Positions 1-31,941 of a stretch of DNA of 32,211 nucleotides are shown piece after piece. The notes under the pieces are model-generated. The model worked only from the letters and a program-made list of their open reading frames with translations. It made no database searches and had not been told where the DNA came from. Position 1 is the first letter of the stretch, and every line of letters starts with the position of its first letter. The position numbers were made by a program, and so were the translations under genes. The DNA is taken from assembly GCA_030529665.1 (NCBI GenBank), contig JAUMWL010000001.1, positions 1-32,211 of the forward strand. Direction: 5' to 3'. Source of the stretch: Coriobacteriales bacterium. Lineage in GTDB: Bacteria > Actinomycetota > Coriobacteriia > Coriobacteriales > Atopobiaceae.

Positions 1-168
1 GACAACGACAGCCCCAAAAACTCTCTGCGATTGAGATCTTGCACTAGTATCACTTCCTCAATGCGTTCGATAAAAGCCCGACAAGTATACCCGAATGTCT
101 AGCAACCCAACCCCATGTTCTTATTCGCGAACGCAAGTCGAGTGCGCAAAGCGGATCACCAACATGGG

Positions 169-249
169 AGGCCCTCCGTGTCCTTCTCTGCGAATCGCGA
201 AGCGAGTGAGCAAAGCGAACGCTGAGCAAGAGAAGGACACGGAGGGCCT
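169..249. repeat. Long perfect inverted repeat (possible terminator of the ABC operon)
   Basis: Positions 169-189 and 229-249 are perfect 21-base inverted arms separated by 39 bases. The hairpin lies 26 bases past the stop of the minus-strand ABC operon, so it could end that transcript, but no T-run follows on the minus strand. The loop (190-228) carries a GCGAA/AGCGAG/AGCAAAGCG pattern that is loosely repeated at 125-154, which suggests a repetitive palindromic element rather than a plain terminator. The rest of 1-274 holds no gene that I can support. Confidence 0.6.
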
Positions 250-274
250 TCACGCAGGTCGTATTATGTGACGC

Positions 275-2308
275 TTACTCCAGCTCGAAGGCTCCCGTGT
301 AGAGCTGGTAGTACGTGCCCTTTTGGGCGATGAGTTCGTCGTGCGTGCCGCGCTCGATGATGCGGCCGTGATCGAGCACTATGATGACGTCGGAGTTGCG
401 CACGGTGGAGAGTCGGTGTGCGATCACAAAGGTGGTGCGGCCTTCCATGAGCGCGTCCATGCCGCGGCTCACGATCTGCTCGGTGCGCGTGTCGATGGAA
501 CTCGTTGCCTCGTCCAAGATCATCACGGGTGGGTCTGCCACGGCCGCGCGCGCGATGGAGAGCAGCTGGCGCTGGCCCTGCGAGAGCGACTCGGCGTTGT
601 CGGTGAGCATGGTGTTGTAGCCCTGTGGCAGGCGCCTGATGAAGGAGTGCGCGCCTACGAGCTTGGCGGCCTGTATGCACTGCTCGTCGGTGGCGTCCAG
701 GCGGCCGTAGCGAATGTTGTCCATAACGGTGCCCGTAAACAGGTTGACGTCTTGCAGCACGATGCCAAGCGAGCGGCGCAGGGAGGACTTCTTTATCTTG
801 TTGATGTTGATGCCGTCGTAGCGAATCTTGCCGTCAGCAATGTCATAGAAGCGGTTGATGAGGTTGGTAATGGTGGTCTTGCCCGCGCCGGTGGCACCTA
901 CGAAAGCGACCTTTTGGCCGGGGAAGGCGTCGATGGACACGTTGTGCAGCACCAGATGGTCGGGTACGTACCCAAAGTCCACGTCGTCCAGGATCACGTC
1001 GCCCATAACCGGCATGTAGTCGGTGAGTCCCGTGGCCTTGTGCGGATGCTTCCATGCCCAAACGGCGTAGCGGTCGCTGGGGCTTACCTCCTCAAGCACC
1101 TCGGTCATCTCGTCGTTCATGCGTACGCGTACCAGCTCCACGTATCCCTCGTCCTCCTCGGGATAGACGTCGAGCATCTGAAAGATTCGCTCTGCACCGG
1201 CAAGGCCCATAACCACAAAGTTGATTTGGTGGGAGATCTGGCCAATGGAACCTGCGAAGCGCTTGGTAAGGTTGAGGAAGGGGATCACGATGTCGATGGA
1301 GAGCACCATGCCCGAGATGCAGGGGTTGGGGATGCCGATGCCAAGGAACAGGCCGCCTGCCAGCGCAACGAGCACATAGGCCAGGTTGCCTAGGTTCATG
1401 AGCACGGGTCCCAGGATGTTGGAGTATATGTTGGCCTGCTTTGCGGCCTCAAACAGCTCGTCGTTGACCTCGTCAAACTCGGCCTGCATCTGCTTCTCGT
1501 GGGTAAAGACCTTAATTACCTTCTGGCCGTTCATGGCCTCCTCGGCAAAGCCTTCGGCGTGGCCGATCGCATGCTGCTGGGCAATGAAGAAGCTGGCCGA
1601 CTTGCCGCCAAGGTAGCGTGTGAGCCAACCCATAAAGCCCACGGCGCACAAGACCACGCACGAGAGGGGCACGGAGTACCACAGCATAATAAAGGTGATG
1701 GACGTCATGGAGATCACCATCGTGAGCAGGTTGGGCAATGCCACGCCAATGAGCTGGCGCAGGGCGTCCACGTCGTTGGTGTAGTAGCTCATAACGTCGC
1801 CGCGCTGGTTCTGGTCAAAGAACTGGATGGGAAGGTCTTCCATGTGGTCAAACATCTTGTTGCGGATCTCGCGCAGGGTTCCCTGCGTAACAAAGGCACC
1901 AAGCTGCGTCTGTGCAATCTGGCACCCAAGGGCGATGGCGTAGGTGATTATGAGCATGAGGGCAATGTGTCCCACCTCAACGCTGGCGGCCGTCCAGTCC
2001 GCGCTTTGCCAGTAGCGACCGATCACGTCTATGGTACGTTGCAAATAGATGCTTGGCAGCGTGGAGAGTACCGACGACACAACCACGCATGCAAGCATGA
2101 GCGAGAACTGCAGAGGGAAGAACGAGAACACGAGCTTTATTGTGCCGCGGAACACCTTCATGGAGTCGGTCGCGCGCTTGCCGCGACTGCCCTTGCCAGG
2201 CACGCCTTTGTTTTCCGCTATGGCGGAACCCGGTGCCGGTGCGTCCTTCAGACGTGCGGGGTCTTCAAGTACCTTGCGCTGGGCCTTTGTGAGCTTGGGC
2301 TTACTCAT
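275..2308 (-). CDS. ABC exporter subunit with catalytic NBD (heterodimeric multidrug/lipid type)
   Basis: A 677-aa half-transporter with permease and ATPase fused. After a basic, Pro/Gly-rich N-terminal tail of about 50 residues come six predicted membrane segments (about 60-360) and then the nucleotide-binding domain: Walker A GATGAGKT (471-478), Q-loop Q519, signature LSQGQ (575-579), Walker B MILDE with the catalytic Glu at 600, and H-loop His631. The signature departs from LSGGQ, while the Walker B Glu and H-loop His are intact. That pattern is known for the consensus subunit of heterodimeric exporters such as TM287/288 and BmrCD. The ATG overlaps the end of the upstream ABC gene by 8 bases and is preceded by GAGGAGGTGA, indicating translational coupling. 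An insert at about 390-435 between permease and ATPase is longer than usual. The substrate cannot be read from sequence; a drug or lipid is likely given the MarR partner. Confidence 0.93.
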   Translation of the reverse strand: MSKPKLTKAQRKVLEDPARLKDAPAPGSAIAENKGVPGKGSRGKRATDSMKVFRGTIKLVFSFFPLQFSLMLACVVVSSVLSTLPSIYLQRTIDVIGRYWQSADWTAASVEVGHIALMLIITYAIALGCQIAQTQLGAFVTQGTLREIRNKMFDHMEDLPIQFFDQNQRGDVMSYYTNDVDALRQLIGVALPNLLTMVISMTSITFIMLWYSVPLSCVVLCAVGFMGWLTRYLGGKSASFFIAQQHAIGHAEGFAEEAMNGQKVIKVFTHEKQMQAEFDEVNDELFEAAKQANIYSNILGPVLMNLGNLAYVLVALAGGLFLGIGIPNPCISGMVLSIDIVIPFLNLTKRFAGSIGQISHQINFVVMGLAGAERIFQMLDVYPEEDEGYVELVRVRMNDEMTEVLEEVSPSDRYAVWAWKHPHKATGLTDYMPVMGDVILDDVDFGYVPDHLVLHNVSIDAFPGQKVAFVGATGAGKTTITNLINRFYDIADGKIRYDGININKIKKSSLRRSLGIVLQDVNLFTGTVMDNIRYGRLDATDEQCIQAAKLVGAHSFIRRLPQGYNTMLTDNAESLSQGQRQLLSIARAAVADPPVMILDEATSSIDTRTEQIVSRGMDALMEGRTTFVIAHRLSTVRNSDVIIVLDHGRIIERGTHDELIAQKGTYYQLYTGAFELE

Positions 2309-24175: not shown

Positions 24176-24239
24176 GGACAATGGGGACGGGGACGTTTGT
24201 CCGGCAAAGGCGGGACAAACGTCCCCGTCCCCATTGTCC
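24176..24239. terminator. GGGGACGGGGACG-type hairpin, second copy
   Basis: Perfect 27-base arms (24176-24202 and 24213-24239) around a 10-base loop. It shares the core GGGGACGGGGACGTTTGTCC with the hairpin at 9608-9667. It lies six bases past the tgt stop and ends before the secD-like gene, so it may terminate or attenuate between them. No clear T-run. Confidence 0.75.
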
Positions 24240-24303
24240 CCGGACTGTGCTAAACTGGTTTGATATTTATCAAGATTTCGAATGGCTGAAAGCGAGTCAC
24301 ATC

Positions 24304-25734
24304 ATGGCCAAGAAAAACGAGTCGCCGGAACGCAAGACAGGCGTCGCGGCGTGGAAGGAAGAGACGGGCGGCGCGACGCACGCGCAAAACAGGGCGGGCG
24401 CAGAGCGTCGCAACCGTGTAATTGCTTTGGTTGCGCTCGCGGCGCTCTGTATCGCCTGCGTTGTGTGCTTCATTCCCGTAAAGGAACGCATTACGCGAGG
24501 GCTTTGGCTCAAGGAGGGCACTGCCGTCACCTTTGCCGTAACTAAGGAGGACGGGTCCAAGCCTTCTGCGGAGGAGATGAATAACGCCGTCGGCGTTGTG
24601 CGCCATCGCTTGGCCTCCACGGGCATCTCGGAGTATGACGTAAGCACCAGCGGGGAGGACTCCCTCGTCGTCACCCTTCCGTGGAACATGGATGCCCAGA
24701 CCATCGCAAGGTCTGTCGGTGGTGCGGGAAAGATAGAGTTTGCCCGCTTTGACAGCATTGGCGACGCGGATGCGTTGGTAAAGATAAACGCCGGTACCTC
24801 GGGCGTGGAGCTCAGGGACGGATCGTACACCGCCTTCATGGACGGCTCGATGATCGAGTCCGCCGAGGTAGCTGACCTGGGAAGCGGATCGTATGCCGTA
24901 ACCCTCACGTTTAACGACGAGGGCAAGCAAGTGTTTGCCGACGTTACGAAGGAGCTCGCGGAAGATTCGGGACAGATTGCCCTCATTGTGGACGGCGCCG
25001 TGCTAACCGCTCCTTCCGTGTCGCAAGAGATTTCCGATGGCGTCGTGTCGATTAGCGGCTTCACCAAGGAGGAGGCAGAGTCGCTCAAGGCCTTGGTGGA
25101 AAGCGATACTCTCTCCCTAAAGATGACGGCATCGGGTACTGCGTCCACCGACCCGCTCATTGGCAAGCAGATGCTCTGGGGCCTGGTGTTTGTGGCTATC
25201 GCCTTGCTGGTTGGCGTTACCGTTGCCTCCTTTGTTAAGTTTGGCAGGCTCGCCGTGGTTATGGGCGGTGCCATGCTGGTGTTTGGGATCACCTTGTTGG
25301 GCATGCTGGCCATTGGGTCCATGTCAAACATGTTCGTCCTCACGATGCCAGGCGTCGTGGGCGGCGCATGTGCAGGCTGGCTGTGCGTAATTAGCGTCTG
25401 GCTCATGATTGCGGACTTTTATGGCAAGGTCTCTCAAGGCAGGAACATAAGGGGAGCGGCAATGTCTGCGCCTCACGATGGCATGCGGCGCATGCTCGTA
25501 CCCGTGCTCGCGCTTTCGGTCCTCTCTGCCATTGCCATGTTCCTTCCCATTCCGGTTATTCGCGAGATTGGCACCACCTTTGTGCTGGGTGCTGTAAGTG
25601 GCGTAATTGCAGTCTTTTGGTATGCCGTAACGCTCTTGCGCCTGCTTGCATCCACCTCCATCCAGGCGCATCCTGAGTCCTGGGGCGTAAAGGCGGTTGC
25701 GGTGGATAACGTAGCGACAGCGGAGGCGTCCTAA
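24304..25734 (+). CDS. secD: Divergent SecD-like protein translocase subunit
   Basis: A 476-aa protein with the SecD plan: N-terminal membrane helix (39-59), a GLWLKEGT segment in place of the conserved GLDLKGG, a periplasmic P1-type region containing RLASTGISEYDV, a P1-base strand region (VDGAVLTAPSVSQEISDGVVSISGFTKEEA), and about five C-terminal membrane segments. In TM4 of canonical SecD the GxxVDANVLIFER stretch carries the acidic residue used in proton-driven translocation; the equivalent region here reads CAGWLCVISVWLMIADFY and lacks it. SecF and YajC are absent nearby. The ATG at 24304 begins MAKKNESPERK; longer frames run into the repeat hairpin. It starts an operon with recJ, rel and the MBL gene. 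Confidence 0.8.
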   Translation: MAKKNESPERKTGVAAWKEETGGATHAQNRAGAERRNRVIALVALAALCIACVVCFIPVKERITRGLWLKEGTAVTFAVTKEDGSKPSAEEMNNAVGVVRHRLASTGISEYDVSTSGEDSLVVTLPWNMDAQTIARSVGGAGKIEFARFDSIGDADALVKINAGTSGVELRDGSYTAFMDGSMIESAEVADLGSGSYAVTLTFNDEGKQVFADVTKELAEDSGQIALIVDGAVLTAPSVSQEISDGVVSISGFTKEEAESLKALVESDTLSLKMTASGTASTDPLIGKQMLWGLVFVAIALLVGVTVASFVKFGRLAVVMGGAMLVFGITLLGMLAIGSMSNMFVLTMPGVVGGACAGWLCVISVWLMIADFYGKVSQGRNIRGAAMSAPHDGMRRMLVPVLALSVLSAIAMFLPIPVIREIGTTFVLGAVSGVIAVFWYAVTLLRLLASTSIQAHPESWGVKAVAVDNVATAEAS

Positions 25735-25750: not shown

Positions 25751-28700
25751 ATGCCGGGCCTGCTCCACAACAGACGTTGGGAGGTTCTATCCTCAAGCGA
25801 GGAGGACGAGCGTTTGCTATGCGAACAGCTTGGCCTGGCTCCCATGGTGGCACGCGTGCTGTGCGCGCGTGGCGTCAACAACGTCCAGGCGGCCTATGAG
25901 TTCTTGCACCCCTCGCTCGATCGGGATTGGGCGGATCCGCTCGACATTCCCGGCATGCGAGAGGCGGCCGACCGCGTTGAGCTGGCACTCCAAAACCACG
26001 AGCGGATTGCCGTCTTTGGGGACTTTGATGTTGACGGCATGACGTCCACCTGTCTGCTTACCCAAGCGCTCAGGGCCCTTGGCGGCGACGTGCAGCCCTA
26101 CATCCCCCATAGGTTTGGCGAGGGATACGGCCTTTCTCGCAAGGCGCTCAATCGTGTCATAACCGGCTCGAACCCCGATCTGCTCATTACGGTGGACAAC
26201 GGCATCGCCTCTGGAAAAGAAGTTGCCTGGCTCGTGGACGAGGGCATAGACGTGGTGGTTACCGACCACCACGAACCGGGTGACCTCGTGCCGCAAGGAG
26301 TGCCCGTAACGGACCCAAAGCTCGTGCCCGACTGCTACTCACGCGAGCTGGCAGGCGTGGGCGTGGCCCTCAAGCTGGTGTGCGAGCTCGGTCGCAGACG
26401 GTCGATGCCCAACCTGTGGTATGAGTTCACCGACCTCGCCGCATTGGGCACGGTCTCCGACATGATGATCCTGCAGGGCGAGAATCGCACGCTCGTGGCG
26501 CACGGCATAGCCCTCATGCGCAAGGGACTCAGGCCAGGCATTGCCGCGCTTGCGGCGACGGCTGGCATAAGCTTGGCAGAGGTCAATGCCGACGACCTGC
26601 CTTTTACGATAATCCCCCGCCTTAATGCCGCAGGTCGTATGGGCACCACGGAGGTCGCATTCGACTTGCTTATATCAAACAGTCCCCAGGAGGCCGTGAG
26701 CTTGGCCGGGATGCTCGAGCGCACAAACACCGAGCGTCGCGAGACCGAGGGACTCTTGTCGGAGGAGGCACTTGCGCACATAGAGAAGACCTATGCGGGC
26801 GAGCGCGTCATCGTGCTTGCGGGCGAGGGATGGCACGAAGGCGTTAAGGGCATCGTGGCGAGCAGGGTCGTAAACAAGTATCACGTACCTGCCATCATCT
26901 TTACCATTGCCGATGGCGTCGCGCGTGGGTCTGGCAGGAGCGTGGGCTCGGTCGACCTGTTCCACGCCGTGGAGCAGTGCTCCGACGACCTCATTCGCTT
27001 TGGTGGCCATTCCGGTGCGGTGGGCGTAACCTGTGCGGTGGAGAACATCGACCGGTTTGCCAAGCACCTGCAAAAGGTGATGGAGGCATTGCCCGAAGAG
27101 GAGTTCGTGGACAAGGGCGAGGTTGCCGCGCTCGTGTCGCTGTCCGAGCTCAACCTGCAGAGCATAGCCGACCTCGATGCGCTCCAGCCGTTTGGGCAGG
27201 GCAACAAGCGTCCTTTGTTTGGCCTGCGTGGCGTGCACATGAGCAATCGTGTGCGCGTGGGCTACGGCAACTGCCACCTGCGGTTCTCGGCGACAGACGG
27301 CGTGTATTCGCTGCCCGCCATTATGTTTAGGGTGCCAAACATCGAGAAGGCCTATTCGTGCGACGGCGTCGTGGACCTGGTGGTTGATGCGATAAACGAG
27401 TCGTGGCAGGGGCGCACCAACCCCAAGCTCATGGTGACTGACATCCTGTACAGGGAAGAGTCGGATGACGCACTCCTGCAACGCATACAGCGGACGTTTA
27501 TTGCGGAGGCCCCCTTGCTGCCTGCGCAAAAGCTGGCGCTCGACAAGCTCCGTGCCGGCAAGTCAACGCTGTGCGTTATGGCTACGGGACGTGGCAAGTC
27601 GCTGATATTTCAGATTCATGCCGCTCGCATTGCGCTCGCGCAGCGTAAGGCGAGCATTCTGGTGTTCCCGCTTCGTGCTCTTGTGTCTGACCAAGTCTTC
27701 CATATGCGCGAGGCGTTTGCAAAGCTTGGCATAGGCGTGGAGGTGCTCACCGGCGAGACTCCGCTGCAAGATAGACCCAAGGTCTACGAAGGCATCGCGC
27801 AAGGTGTCATAGACGTGGTGCTTACGACTCCGGAGTATCTTGCGATTCACGTTGGGGAGTTTGCCCGCACGAGTCGCGTGGGATTCGTCGTGATTGACGA
27901 GGCGCACCATGCGGCACGCACCGGCACGGGTAGCCGCGCCGCATACGCGGAGCTTCCGCAGGTGCTCAGGACACTGGGAAACCCCACCACACTTGCGGTA
28001 ACCGCCACGGCACCGCCCAAGGTCGCACATGGCATATGCGAGCTGCTGGGCATACGAGATGCCAACGTGGTCGTAGACGAGTCGGTGAGGAACAACCTGC
28101 GCATTGTGGACCATCGCAACCTTCGCGAACGCGATGCTATGCTTGCAGAGCTGGTGTCAAGTGGCCAAAAGACCGTGGTGTACGTAAACTCGCGCGAGCA
28201 GGCCTCCGTGCTTACCCGCACGCTGCGCATGGGCGCCTCCGGGCTTGGGCACAGAATTGCGTTCTACCACGCAGGCCTTTCTCGCGACGTGCGCCTTCGC
28301 ATAGAGCAGGCGTTTAGGGGAGACCAGCTTTGCTGCGTGGTGTGCACAAGCGCCTTTGGCGAGGGCGTAAACCTGCCAGGCATAAGAAACGTCGTTTTGT
28401 ATCACATGCCCTTTGGGGCCACTGAGTTTAACCAGATGAGCGGACGAGCTGGTCGCGACGGCAAGGAGGCGCACATCCACCTGCTGTATGGCAAAAAGGA
28501 CGCGCTCATCAACCAGCGAATCCTTTCGTCACTCGCGCCGACCCGAGACGACCTCGTCGCTTTGTATCGCGAGCTCATGACCGAGGACCGCAGGGCAAGC
28601 TCCATGGGATTTTGCCTTGACAACGCGAGCTTGTTGGCAAGTACGATTCAGATCAACCAGCACGTCCAGCTTAGCGAGTCGGGCATTGCCTCGGGCATCT

Positions 28701-28939
28701 TGGTATTTGAGGAACTGGGCTTTTTGTCCATAGAGGGCTTTGGGGATCAACGTTTTATTCGCATGATACCTGCGCAGGGTAGGGTGGAGCTATCGGATTC
28801 GTTGCGCTATGCGGAGGGTCAGCGCGAACTCGGCGAGTTTATGGACTTTAGGGATTGGGCTCTGTTTGCAAATGCCAAGGAGATGCTGGAACGTATAAAC
28901 AGGCCCATAACACCGGGCTTTGGATCAGTAGTTAGCTAG
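25751..28939 (+). CDS. recJ: RecJ exonuclease fused to a RecQ-like helicase
   Basis: A 1062-aa protein. Residues 1 to about 560 are RecJ, a 5'-3' single-strand DNA exonuclease: FGDFDVDGMTST (89-100), DNG (149-151), DHH (172-174), GTVSD (233-237), PRLNAAGRMG (289-298), DHHA1 motifs GRS and FGGHSGAVG (417-425), then the OB-type region. Residues about 590-920 form a superfamily-2 helicase: MATGRGKS (610-617), DEAHH (716-720), TATAPP (751-756) and QMSGRAGRDG (895-904), like RecQ. The last 140 residues show no zinc-binding RQC cysteine set and no recognised HRDC. RecQ and RecJ act together in RecFOR repair, so a single polypeptide is logical. ATG 25751 follows GAAAGGA with a GAGGG, 16 bases after the secD stop. 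Confidence 0.92.
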   Translation: MPGLLHNRRWEVLSSSEEDERLLCEQLGLAPMVARVLCARGVNNVQAAYEFLHPSLDRDWADPLDIPGMREAADRVELALQNHERIAVFGDFDVDGMTSTCLLTQALRALGGDVQPYIPHRFGEGYGLSRKALNRVITGSNPDLLITVDNGIASGKEVAWLVDEGIDVVVTDHHEPGDLVPQGVPVTDPKLVPDCYSRELAGVGVALKLVCELGRRRSMPNLWYEFTDLAALGTVSDMMILQGENRTLVAHGIALMRKGLRPGIAALAATAGISLAEVNADDLPFTIIPRLNAAGRMGTTEVAFDLLISNSPQEAVSLAGMLERTNTERRETEGLLSEEALAHIEKTYAGERVIVLAGEGWHEGVKGIVASRVVNKYHVPAIIFTIADGVARGSGRSVGSVDLFHAVEQCSDDLIRFGGHSGAVGVTCAVENIDRFAKHLQKVMEALPEEEFVDKGEVAALVSLSELNLQSIADLDALQPFGQGNKRPLFGLRGVHMSNRVRVGYGNCHLRFSATDGVYSLPAIMFRVPNIEKAYSCDGVVDLVVDAINESWQGRTNPKLMVTDILYREESDDALLQRIQRTFIAEAPLLPAQKLALDKLRAGKSTLCVMATGRGKSLIFQIHAARIALAQRKASILVFPLRALVSDQVFHMREAFAKLGIGVEVLTGETPLQDRPKVYEGIAQGVIDVVLTTPEYLAIHVGEFARTSRVGFVVIDEAHHAARTGTGSRAAYAELPQVLRTLGNPTTLAVTATAPPKVAHGICELLGIRDANVVVDESVRNNLRIVDHRNLRERDAMLAELVSSGQKTVVYVNSREQASVLTRTLRMGASGLGHRIAFYHAGLSRDVRLRIEQAFRGDQLCCVVCTSAFGEGVNLPGIRNVVLYHMPFGATEFNQMSGRAGRDGKEAHIHLLYGKKDALINQRILSSLAPTRDDLVALYRELMTEDRRASSMGFCLDNASLLASTIQINQHVQLSESGIASGILVFEELGFLSIEGFGDQRFIRMIPAQGRVELSDSLRYAEGQRELGEFMDFRDWALFANAKEMLERINRPITPGFGSVVS

Positions 28940-28961: not shown

Positions 28962-31298
28962 ATGCGAACGCACGGAAAGCAGGCGGGCAAAGCAAGGGGA
29001 GCCAACATACCCGGTGCGGATAACTATCGACTCCTGCAATCCGCCTGTGCGGGTTACCTGGACGAGCAGGACTGCAGAAAGGTCGATGACGCGTACTGGT
29101 TTGCCGCCGAGTTTCACAAGGACCAGCGCAGAAGGTCCGGTGAGCCATACATCAACCATCCGGTTGAGGTTGCGCTCATCTTGGCCAAGGACCTGCATAT
29201 GGATGCCGACACCATCTGCGCGGCAATTCTTCACGATACCGTGGAGGACACCACCGCAACGCTTGAGGACCTATCCCAACGCTTTGGCGATACGGTGGCC
29301 GAGCTGGTGGACGGCGTGACAAAGCTCACCAACATTCAGGTCTCCAACATGGACGAGAAGCAGGCGCTCAACCTGCGCAAGATGGTGCTCGCCATGTCCA
29401 AGGACATTCGCGTGGTCATCATAAAGATTGCGGACCGTCTGCATAACATGCGCACCCTTGCCGCGCTGCCTCCCCACAAGCGCGCGTTTAAGTCTCGCGA
29501 GACCATGGACGTCTATGCACCGCTGGCGGACCGCCTGGGAATCTCGTCCATAAAGTGGGAGTTGGAGGACCTCTCGTTCTTTTATCTGGAACCCGAGGAG
29601 TATGAGCGCATCGCGCGCATGGTGCAGGACTCCCGCGCGCAGCGCGAGCGCGATACCGACGAGGCCATAAAGGCGCTCTCGGACGAGCTGCATAGGGTAG
29701 GCGTAAAAAACTACCAAATAAACGGTCGCCCCAAGCACCTGTGGTCGATTCACCAAAAGATGCATCGCAGGGGCATGGAGTTCAGCGACATCTACGACCT
29801 CATTGCCATACGAGTCATCACCAACACGGTGGAGGAATGCTACAGGGTTCTTGGCGCTGTGCACTCGCTGTGGCATCCACTGCCTGGCAGGTTTAAGGAC
29901 TACATCGCAACGCCAAAGGCAAACATGTACCAGTCGCTGCACACCACGGTTATCGGTCCGGACGCCCGTCCCATTGAGGTGCAGATTCGCACGGCCGAGA
30001 TGCACGAGCATGCCGAATATGGTGTCGCCGCCCATTGGCTCTACAAGAAGGCGGGCAATTCCGAAGGCAAGATGTCGCGCGACGACAAGAGCATCAACTC
30101 CACCATCAACCACATACGGCGCAACTTTGACTGGGTAAGCGACGACGAGATCAACGACCCTACGGAGTTTCTCAACAGCTTGCGCGTGGACCTGTTTGAG
30201 GGCGAGATCTTTGTGTTTACCCCCAAGGGCGAGGTAATGAGCCTGCGCCGGGACTCCACGCCTTTGGACTTTGCCTATGCGGTCCATACGGAGGTGGGTA
30301 ACCATTGCGTTGGCGCAAAGGTAAACGGCTCGGTGGTTCCGCTGACCTATCGCCTGCAGATGGGCGATCGTGTAGAGATCCTTACAAACAAGAGCGCTCA
30401 TCCTTCCAGGGACTGGATGGGCATCGTGGTCACGCCCTCGGCACGTTCTAAGGTGCGGCGCTACTTTACCTATGCCAACCAGGCAGACGATGCCGAGCAG
30501 GGGCGGGCCGAGCTTGCGCGCGAGCTTCGCAAGCGTGGCTACGGCATATCCACCAAGCGTACCGTAAAGGCAATCGACGAGGTGCTTCCGCAGTTTGACG
30601 CACGTAGTCCCGAGGGACTGTTCCAGGCCATCTATTTGGGGAAACAGTCGGTAAAGCAGGTTGCAAACCGCATACAGGCCGTGCTGGAGAGGGAGTCGCG
30701 CGAGCAGCTCGCAAAGGCCCAGCGCGAGGCCGAAAGCGCTGAGGTGGCCCAGAGGGAAGCCGAGCAGCGCCTGCGCGTCCCACGCACGAAGGGCACCAAG
30801 TCAAAGCGCAAGAAGAGCAGCAACGGCGTGGTGGTAAAGGGCGACGCGGACCTTCTGGCACGCTTGGCGCACTGCTGCAATCCCGTTGCCGGTGACGACA
30901 TCGTTGGCTTCATTACGCGCGGGCGGGGGGTCTCGGTGCATCGCACGTCCTGCCCAAACGTAAAGAATCTCATGAACAATCCCGAACGGATGATAGAGGT
31001 GGAATGGGACGCGTCCGGTGCGTCCGAGTTCCAGCTTGCCATGGTGGTTGAGGCAAACGACCGAATGGGTTTGCTCAAAGATGTTACTGCCGCCATTTCG
31101 GACGCAGGAGCAAACATTTTGTCTGCAACCACGCAGACGACCCATGAGGGATTGGCAAGGCTACGCTTTACGGTTGCCATCTCCGACGCCAACCTAATCG
31201 ACTCGCTCTTGGCAGCGGTGAGCCGTGTTCCCTCGGTGTTTGATGCCCGGCGTCTGATGCCCGGAGAAGGTGCCAGCCAAATGAAGAGGAGGGCCTAG
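28962..31298 (+). CDS. rel: Bifunctional (p)ppGpp synthetase/hydrolase Rel
   Basis: A 778-aa RelA/SpoT homologue that makes and degrades the stringent-response alarmone. The HD hydrolase domain is intact (HDTVEDT, 91-97; HNMRTL). The synthetase has YDLIAIRVI, GRFKD (RxKD form, 310-313, typical of bifunctional enzymes rather than EFDD of RelA-only) and YQSLHTTV. TGS (about 405-475, IFVFTPKGEV), a Cys-containing central region (HCCNPVAGDDIVGF) and a C-terminal ACT domain (about 690-770) follow. The start ATG at 28962 has AAGGGGG upstream. It lies 22 bases after recJ and one base before the MBL gene. Confidence 0.95.
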   Translation: MRTHGKQAGKARGANIPGADNYRLLQSACAGYLDEQDCRKVDDAYWFAAEFHKDQRRRSGEPYINHPVEVALILAKDLHMDADTICAAILHDTVEDTTATLEDLSQRFGDTVAELVDGVTKLTNIQVSNMDEKQALNLRKMVLAMSKDIRVVIIKIADRLHNMRTLAALPPHKRAFKSRETMDVYAPLADRLGISSIKWELEDLSFFYLEPEEYERIARMVQDSRAQRERDTDEAIKALSDELHRVGVKNYQINGRPKHLWSIHQKMHRRGMEFSDIYDLIAIRVITNTVEECYRVLGAVHSLWHPLPGRFKDYIATPKANMYQSLHTTVIGPDARPIEVQIRTAEMHEHAEYGVAAHWLYKKAGNSEGKMSRDDKSINSTINHIRRNFDWVSDDEINDPTEFLNSLRVDLFEGEIFVFTPKGEVMSLRRDSTPLDFAYAVHTEVGNHCVGAKVNGSVVPLTYRLQMGDRVEILTNKSAHPSRDWMGIVVTPSARSKVRRYFTYANQADDAEQGRAELARELRKRGYGISTKRTVKAIDEVLPQFDARSPEGLFQAIYLGKQSVKQVANRIQAVLERESREQLAKAQREAESAEVAQREAEQRLRVPRTKGTKSKRKKSSNGVVVKGDADLLARLAHCCNPVAGDDIVGFITRGRGVSVHRTSCPNVKNLMNNPERMIEVEWDASGASEFQLAMVVEANDRMGLLKDVTAAISDAGANILSATTQTTHEGLARLRFTVAISDANLIDSLLAAVSRVPSVFDARRLMPGEGASQMKRRA

Positions 31299-31299
31299 C

Positions 31300-31941
31300 A
31301 TGAAGGAAAGCACGAGCATCCGCCAGTTTGTGGTGGGAGACATACAAACAAACTGCTTTGCCCTGGTAAGCAAAGGTGAATGCATTGTTATTGATCCCGG
31401 CGCGGCTGGTGCTCGCATTGCCCAGGAGCTGCAAGACGTAAGGGTGACGCGGGTAATCGCCACGCATAGGCACCATGACCATGTGTGCGGGGTGGCGGCC
31501 CTTCTTCGCGCCTGCGAGCCAAGGCCGCTGTTTTGTATTGGGCATGCTGACGCCGAGGGTGCTCAGCGCGCAGTCGAGCTCTCGTCCCACGTGTTTGACG
31601 TGGCTGGTCAGGACTTGGAGAATGCGCCAAAGCCTGACGTGTTGCTGCGTGAGGGCGACGTGATTAACGTCGGGGAAGAGAGTCTACGGGTGATCGAGGC
31701 GCCAGGTCACACGGAGGGCGGCATCGTTCTTTTGGGCGATGGGGTGGCATTTGTGGGAGACACCCTCTTTGCAGGGTCTTGTGGACGTACCGACTTGCAG
31801 GGCGGGGACTACATTTCCCTCATGCAGACCCTGCAGCGCTTAAAGGAAGAGATACCACCACAGACGCTCTTGCTGTGCGGGCACGGCCCGCATACCACCA
31901 TGGAACAGGAGCTCACCACCAACCCTTGGCTCATGCAGTAA
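31300..31941 (+). CDS. Metallo-beta-lactamase fold hydrolase (glyoxalase II-like)
   Basis: A 213-aa MBL-fold protein with HRHHDH (56-61), His137 in GHTEGG, Asp154 in FVGDTLFAGSCGRTD, and His195 in GHGPHTT: the full dinuclear zinc ligand set of the glyoxalase II/YcbL group. It probably hydrolyses a thioester or similar; the C-terminal GSH-binding domain of true glyoxalase II is absent, and Coriobacteriia are not expected to use glutathione. The ATG at 31300 follows the rel stop by one base, so it closes the secD-recJ-rel operon. No terminator hairpin follows; 41-bp repeats begin 49 bases on. Confidence 0.9.
   Translation: MKESTSIRQFVVGDIQTNCFALVSKGECIVIDPGAAGARIAQELQDVRVTRVIATHRHHDHVCGVAALLRACEPRPLFCIGHADAEGAQRAVELSSHVFDVAGQDLENAPKPDVLLREGDVINVGEESLRVIEAPGHTEGGIVLLGDGVAFVGDTLFAGSCGRTDLQGGDYISLMQTLQRLKEEIPPQTLLLCGHGPHTTMEQELTTNPWLMQ

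Follow-up and report, generated by a model that had tools for sequence, protein, structure and literature searches.

Textbook accounts of the RecF pathway pair the helicase RecQ with the nuclease RecJ. RecBCD, AddAB, AdnAB and NurA-HerA likewise couple a nuclease to a motor for end resection, using other nuclease folds and motors on separate subunits. In E. coli and D. radiodurans, RecQ, a 3'-to-5' helicase, processes blunt and 3'-tailed ends together with RecJ, a 5'-to-3' nuclease (PMC4846377). The sections of a 2024 review cited here state that RecQ and RecJ do not interact directly and that their mode of collaboration is unclear, and they term the tail of S. aureus RecJ nonconserved (PMC11442139). 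The tail of Deinococcus RecJ has no defined homologue according to the cited part of another study (PMC4663267).

We analysed a window of 32,211 nucleotides, the whole stretch of DNA considered here, from a Coriobacteriales genome. A preliminary description had placed a RecJ nuclease and a superfamily 2 (SF2) helicase in one polypeptide. This was borne out by Pfam, in which DHH, DHHA1, RecJ_OB, DEAD and Helicase_C each matched the product above the curated cut-off; by the recJ equivalog model TIGR00644, whose cut-off was exceeded (451.2 vs 396.9 bits); and by the positions of the RecJ catalytic motifs and SF2 motifs I-VI, all of which were located (Table 1). Judged by its sequence, the product consists of a complete RecJ and, behind it in the same frame, a complete RecQ-like SF2 core with a C-terminal domain (CTD). 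It resembles bacterial RecJ (TIGR00644; 5f54, 2zxo, 8y30) in its DHH, DHHA1 and OB domains, its catalytic motifs and its recJ-relA neighbourhood. However, ordinary RecJ stops after the OB domain or bears a domain IV, whereas the fused protein adds a complete SF2 motor.

Table 1. Coordinates of the recJ-helicase gene, its parts and its neighbours in the window
Feature	Position	Strand	Basis
Upstream neighbour, SecD-like	24181..25734	+	TIGR01129, 103.1 bits, cut-off 244.4 not reached
Whole gene, RecJ-helicase, 1062 aa	25751..28939	+	single ATG-to-stop frame
DHH domain, residues 85-234	26003..26452	+	PF01368, 77.5 bits
DHHA1 domain, residues 351-445	26801..27085	+	PF02272, 48 bits
RecJ OB domain (RecJ_OB), residues 461-564	27131..27442	+	PF17768, 67.9 bits
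Linker, residues 565-588, 24 aa; HIRAN site in relatives	27443..27514	+	linker lengths
Helicase RecA1 lobe, residues 589-765; motifs Q, I (ATGRGKS), II (DEAHH), III (TAT)	27515..28045	+	PF00270 (DEAD) 591-758, motifs, model
Helicase RecA2 lobe, residues 766-930; motifs IV-VI	28046..28540	+	PF00271 (Helicase_C) 797-904, motifs
CTD, residues 931-1062, homologous to ordinary RecJ tail	28541..28936	+	PF10141 match 28625-28828 under cut-off; profile tests
Downstream neighbour, RelA/SpoT	28962..31298	+	TIGR00691, 770.4 bits
Second downstream neighbour, metallo-beta-lactamase-fold (MBL) hydrolase	31300..31941	+	TIGR03413, 102 bits, cut-off 200.8 not reached

The gene order in the window is tgt, SecD-like, recJ, RelA/SpoT and MBL-fold hydrolase. 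Similar orders were found in Clostridia: recJ, RelA/SpoT and MBL hydrolase in Monoglobus, and recJ and RelA/SpoT in Vescimonas. Because the recJ-RelA/SpoT order is common to these genera, the fused gene is the native recJ of Coriobacteriia. PADLOC helicase models matched the motor (DpdF, 208.5 bits; PsyrT, 179.2 bits), as might be expected of an anti-phage defence protein; these matches were limited to the helicase, the gene occurs throughout the class among housekeeping genes, and we regard a defence role as very improbable. The SecD-like neighbour scored far below the SecD cut-off and may be a diverged or unusual SecD or SecDF.

The preliminary description had named two findings that would undo it: a sequencing or assembly error joining two genes, and loss of the helicase motifs in close homologues. 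We looked for the first and ruled it out. Both halves shared one frame at 110 of 113 loci, many of them from cultured strains, so we reject a chance or erroneous join, to which we give next to no credence. At the remaining three loci (L002-L004) the window's genome encodes other helicases, not recJ. The 110 should not be counted as so many independent, full-length examples, because species recur among them and contig or fetch ends truncate some. A class-wide search gave a match in 296 of 296 Coriobacteriia genomes, a figure that counts matches, not fused genes. Named records contained 355 relatives, the best 80 of which include cultured Collinsella, Olsenella, Thermophilibacter, Lancefieldella and Tractidigestivibacter. 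A RecJ match was present in 45 of 50 class genomes chosen to represent the other families, and the five without one (G041, G103, G113, G145, G149) are 59-86% complete; both halves were present in all 30 recJ loci (L114-L143) fetched from this sample. By these data such fusions are widespread in Coriobacteriia, a class with members in the gut and in the environment.

Several atypical frames were examined and set aside. Short recJ frames (G183, G245, G286, G025, G131, G190, G259, G294) and a lone helicase frame (G092) are no evidence of gene fission because they sit at contig ends, and the extra length of a 2323-aa frame in L113 comes from read-through ahead of the gene and does not indicate a longer protein. 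Two genomes of genus g187 (G372, G421) each carry one in-frame TAG in the RecJ frame, from either recoding or sequencing errors.

Both engines are conserved. Motif loss, the second of the two findings named beforehand, was not seen, and the helicase motifs were nearly invariant in an alignment of 44 relatives: no variation was seen at the Walker A lysine, in the DE of DEAHH or at the positions of motif V, and motif VI was present in every row with letters there, with one exception (D903N). Of the 15 RecJ positions checked in the same alignment, 13 were invariant, and N292 and H362 each differed in one row. Path distances in the RecJ-core and helicase trees were correlated (45 taxa; Mantel rho 0.81; 0 of 999 permutations as high). 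As far as alignment and trees tell, the RecJ and helicase halves have evolved together as one old architecture. The trees did not separate one origin of the fused form from several (AU p = 0.146 for the fused proteins as one clade).

We compared the motor with RecQ (TIGR00614; 1oyw, WRN 8yle). RecQ models gave the best match to the helicase part (TIGR00614, residues 591-927) at 186.1 bits, below the family cut-off of 219.8 bits, and DpdF was the next-best family match (136.2 bits). For a helicase-only structural model (pLDDT 89.7, pTM 0.82), the best VIA-align row was WRN 8yle (Z 35.4, rmsd 3.3, 370 aligned); motifs and model together give SF2 motifs I-VI on a RecQ-like core fold. By eye, the loop after DEAH reads DEAHHAARTGTGSR in the window protein vs DEAHCVSQWGQDFRP in the RecQ of the same genome. 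The RecQ segment, which we take to be its aromatic-rich loop, is not present in the window protein on this reading and is replaced by other sequence. The zinc cysteines of the RQC region had been described as missing, correctly, since the sole cysteine beyond the helicase core is residue 955. No Pfam match to an HRDC domain was found in the window protein at E ≤ 0.01; many RecQs also lack HRDC. In the tree, the 45 fused helicases separated from three RecQs (SH-aLRT 100). The earlier label "RecQ-like" thus holds for motifs and fold, but the motor falls under the RecQ family cut-off and has neither RecQ's post-DEAH loop nor its RQC. Unlike RecQ, the fused protein also has an unrelated CTD and a motor tethered to a nuclease.

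The preliminary description had left it to be checked whether the genome has a separate recQ. We found a genuine RecQ (G000:C235, 405.5 bits) with zinc-type cysteines visible in its sequence. Because this RecQ is present, the fusion is no stand-in for a missing one in the window's genome, and RecQ loss as the cause of the fusion was rejected there. The RecQ frame (G000:C235:3447-4646, L174; 536 aa) ends soon past the zinc region and is shorter than RecQ of deep class genomes (L192, L193). The window's genome also has RecO and two PDDEXK_1 matches. Across the class, RecQ was above cut-off in 164 of 246 genomes and had no match above cut-off in the other 82, RecO was present in 59 of 59 genomes searched, and 96 of 99 genomes had a PDDEXK_1 match. 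Eight single-contig genomes (G003, G056, G060, G082, G126, G163, G185, G228) matched the RecQ model only at 1e-43 to 1e-62, and their RecJ frames are 1118-1372 aa long; these genomes probably have no RecQ-like helicase other than the fused motor. Two genomes of family f15, G065 (99% complete) and G075 (96%), had no PDDEXK_1 match; AddAB/RecB-like nucleases may be missing from both, which may then rely on the RecJ-helicase. The sole other genome of the 99 without such a match (G041) is 59% complete.

The linker between the OB domain and the motor varies in length. Over the fused loci its length distribution was bimodal, with ranges of 52-104 and 171-208 aa; the window protein (24 aa) and L006 (22 aa) lie below both. 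The same-genus loci L005 and L007-L012 have linkers of 56-66 aa, and the short linker of the window is either a real shortening or a small in-frame assembly deletion. Of 44 fused relatives, 26 have a HIRAN domain (PF08797; E ≤ 0.001) in this linker, including L154-L157, L013, L114 and L169. The window protein had no Pfam match to HIRAN, and the match in L109 scored 20.4, below the Pfam cut-off of 24.7. The linker is long in the f30 lineage, outside the class, and in those deep families of the class that were sampled. Mapped onto the RecJ-core tree, the HIRAN/long-linker trait required 7 changes, a count that cannot tell gain from loss but fits an early presence of HIRAN followed by repeated loss.

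A HIRAN domain beside an SF2 motor is also seen in HLTF/Rad5 proteins, which differ in having no nuclease and a motor of the SNF2 type. According to the cited sections of an HLTF study, HIRAN drives fork remodelling by HLTF, is suggested to read the 3' end of single-stranded DNA (ssDNA), and occurs in bacteria stand-alone or fused to phosphoesterases or nucleases, statements in which RecJ is not named (PMC4666394). The fused motor could be a translocase or a fork or gap remodeller, not an end-resection helicase, with the HIRAN-bearing forms acting at stalled forks as HLTF does and RecJ trimming the displaced 5' strand. Such a role would suit the frequent adjacency of HIRAN and motor, and the RecQ and PDDEXK-type nucleases of the window's genome, which are available for ends, count against the end-resection proposal. 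We nevertheless consider remodelling unlikely: the motor has the fold of RecQ, not of SNF2, and HIRAN is absent from the window protein and from many relatives.

The RecJ-helicase most likely couples unwinding to degradation of the 5' strand. By analogy, the fusion should do in cis what RecQ and RecJ do together, and may thus be the self-contained machine for processive end resection that the preliminary description put forward. The motor would travel 3' to 5' on the 3'-ended strand, like RecQ, and open the duplex; the released 5'-ended strand would pass to the tethered RecJ core and be degraded 5' to 3', leaving 3' ssDNA for RecFOR and RecA at ends and gaps. The CTD, which probably has a winged-helix fold, would substitute for the RQC winged helix of RecQ, and HIRAN, in the relatives bearing it, could hold the free 3' end. 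We infer the polarity, the processivity and the choice of ends versus gaps.

We then compared the C-terminal region with the tails of ordinary RecJ. A search of the phylum matched 53 of 149 Actinomycetota genomes, and 20 stretches were examined. All nine from family f30, outside the class (L154-L157), and from deep class families (L169-L173) were fused, and none of the 11 RecJ of other classes (L158-L168) had a helicase match. Ten of these 11 tails were aligned, with L165 (a 68-residue tail) excluded, and hhalign matched them to the fused RecA2 lobe plus CTD over 233 columns (97.7%; score 92.6, compared with at most 21.3 in 60 column shuffles and 14.4 in the reversed control). With all eleven tails and another fused profile, the match was 98.6%. 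Scored separately, the CTD reached 51.2 (shuffles ≤14.3) and RecA2 a modest 36.0 (shuffles ≤20.8), and RecA1 gave no signal against the tails (16-17). The CTD profile in HMMER (918 sequences) matched L164 (E = 4.8e-7), L160 (1.6e-5), Paenibacillus (0.0029) and Vescimonas (0.003), with a best shuffle of 3.8. L166, L162 and L161 had E-values of 0.2-0.5 and other tails gave nothing useful; at least seven of the 11 other-Actinomycetota tails had no CTD match at E < 0.01. A RecA2-only HMM search of the tails was not significant. Over 5,489 ORFs of 211 loci, the CTD profile matched RecJ proteins and fused frames, whole or in pieces, and nothing else; no RecQ was among the matches.

Bacillota were represented by six recJ loci from a plasmid collection, picked out of 163 records. 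Domain IV of Paenibacillus RecJ (227 aa) aligned to residues 761-1051 of the window protein (E = 3e-4). Tails were shorter in Vescimonas and Subdoligranulum, long with a weak PF10141 match in Acetoanaerobium, and absent from Monoglobus RecJ and an Alicyclobacillus plasmid copy. PF10141 (ssDNA-exonuc_C) spans residues 581-794 of Paenibacillus RecJ, almost its full family length. In the window's genome its single match at E ≤ 10 is to residues 959-1026 of the RecJ-helicase (E = 0.0097; 16.4 bits, under the gathering cut-off of 26.4). Among 119 class genomes, 25 matched PF10141 at E ≤ 1, two of them above cut-off (G082, G092); by comparison of positions, 17 of the 25 matches lie in the fused gene, five were unplaced (G008, G020, G039, G101, G115) and three fall in short other frames (G054, G080, G112). 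Pfam found no PF10141 at E ≤ 1 in four tailed RecJ.

Structural comparison pointed to the same region. For the full-length model (pLDDT 86.6, pTM 0.55), the best row was S. aureus RecJ, 8y30 (Z 40.3, rmsd 7.5, 631 aligned; model 1..1020, chain 2..727), and D. radiodurans RecJ, 5f55, aligned only to model residues 7..570 (Z 36.9, rmsd 2.6, 528 aligned). Because 8y30 aligns to residue 1020 and 5f55 to residue 570, about 100 residues of 8y30 past the RecJ core fall on the later helicase part in this model. Residues 596-738 of 8y30 also matched Paenibacillus domain IV by sequence (E = 0.0018). A tail-profile search of PDB sequences did not reach 8y30 and gave weak matches to eS19 (best E = 0.017). 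The absence of 8y30 from the helicase-only fold searches is uninformative, as the rows were filled by RecQ and DEAD-box proteins. We found no link between the Deinococcus RecJ tail and this helicase.

By profile, Pfam and structure, the end of RecA2 and the CTD match domain IV (PF10141) of RecJ from Bacillota and other actinomycetes, including 8y30. Unlike the fused protein, domain IV has neither the RecA1 lobe nor the ATPase motifs, and the tails of ordinary RecJ look like ATPase-dead relics of this helicase. Because the C-terminal region persists, in degenerate form, in ordinary Gram-positive RecJ, the phrase "RecQ fused to RecJ" probably misstates the history. An ancestral RecJ-helicase would predate the split of these Gram-positive lineages; in other lineages the RecA1 lobe and ATPase motifs would have been lost, leaving a RecA2 remnant with CTD (domain IV); later only the CTD would have remained, and finally not even that. 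The opposite course is that Gram-positive RecJ at first had only the CTD and that the ancestor shared by Coriobacteriia and f30 gained a RecQ-like RecA1-RecA2 pair, inserted behind the OB domain and ahead of the CTD. Such an insertion would account for the strong CTD and weak RecA2 match and for the short Vescimonas tail, whose sole match is the CTD. However, the tails are collinear from the RecA2 strand order into the CTD across the aligned columns, the Paenibacillus alignment starts at residue 761, and in L169 the PF10141 match (1022-1175) begins within Helicase_C (942-1050); insertion is therefore a doubtful alternative. We have good confidence in the combined account of a native recJ encoding a one-piece helicase-nuclease, with a putative coupling of unwinding to degradation and a proposed helicase-relic history of RecJ tails. 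We lean only slightly towards the broader proposal that Gram-positive RecJ goes back to a single-chain helicase-nuclease in which HIRAN read the 3' end. On that view the machine would still be working in Coriobacteriia, domain IV of RecJ from S. aureus, Paenibacillus and other actinomycetes would be its ATPase-dead remnant, kept for DNA or partner binding, and the cooperation of RecQ and RecJ as separate proteins would in part be derived.

Searches of open-access papers listed none that names a RecJ-helicase fusion, a RecJ-HIRAN protein or a helicase origin of domain IV; the architecture itself may well be listed already in domain databases. The protein unites a known pair of activities in a single chain, and its history may revise the origin of the RecJ tail. 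As a natural covalent helicase-nuclease pair, the protein makes coupling measurable within one protein. The relic reading, if true, would supply an origin for the RecJ tail.
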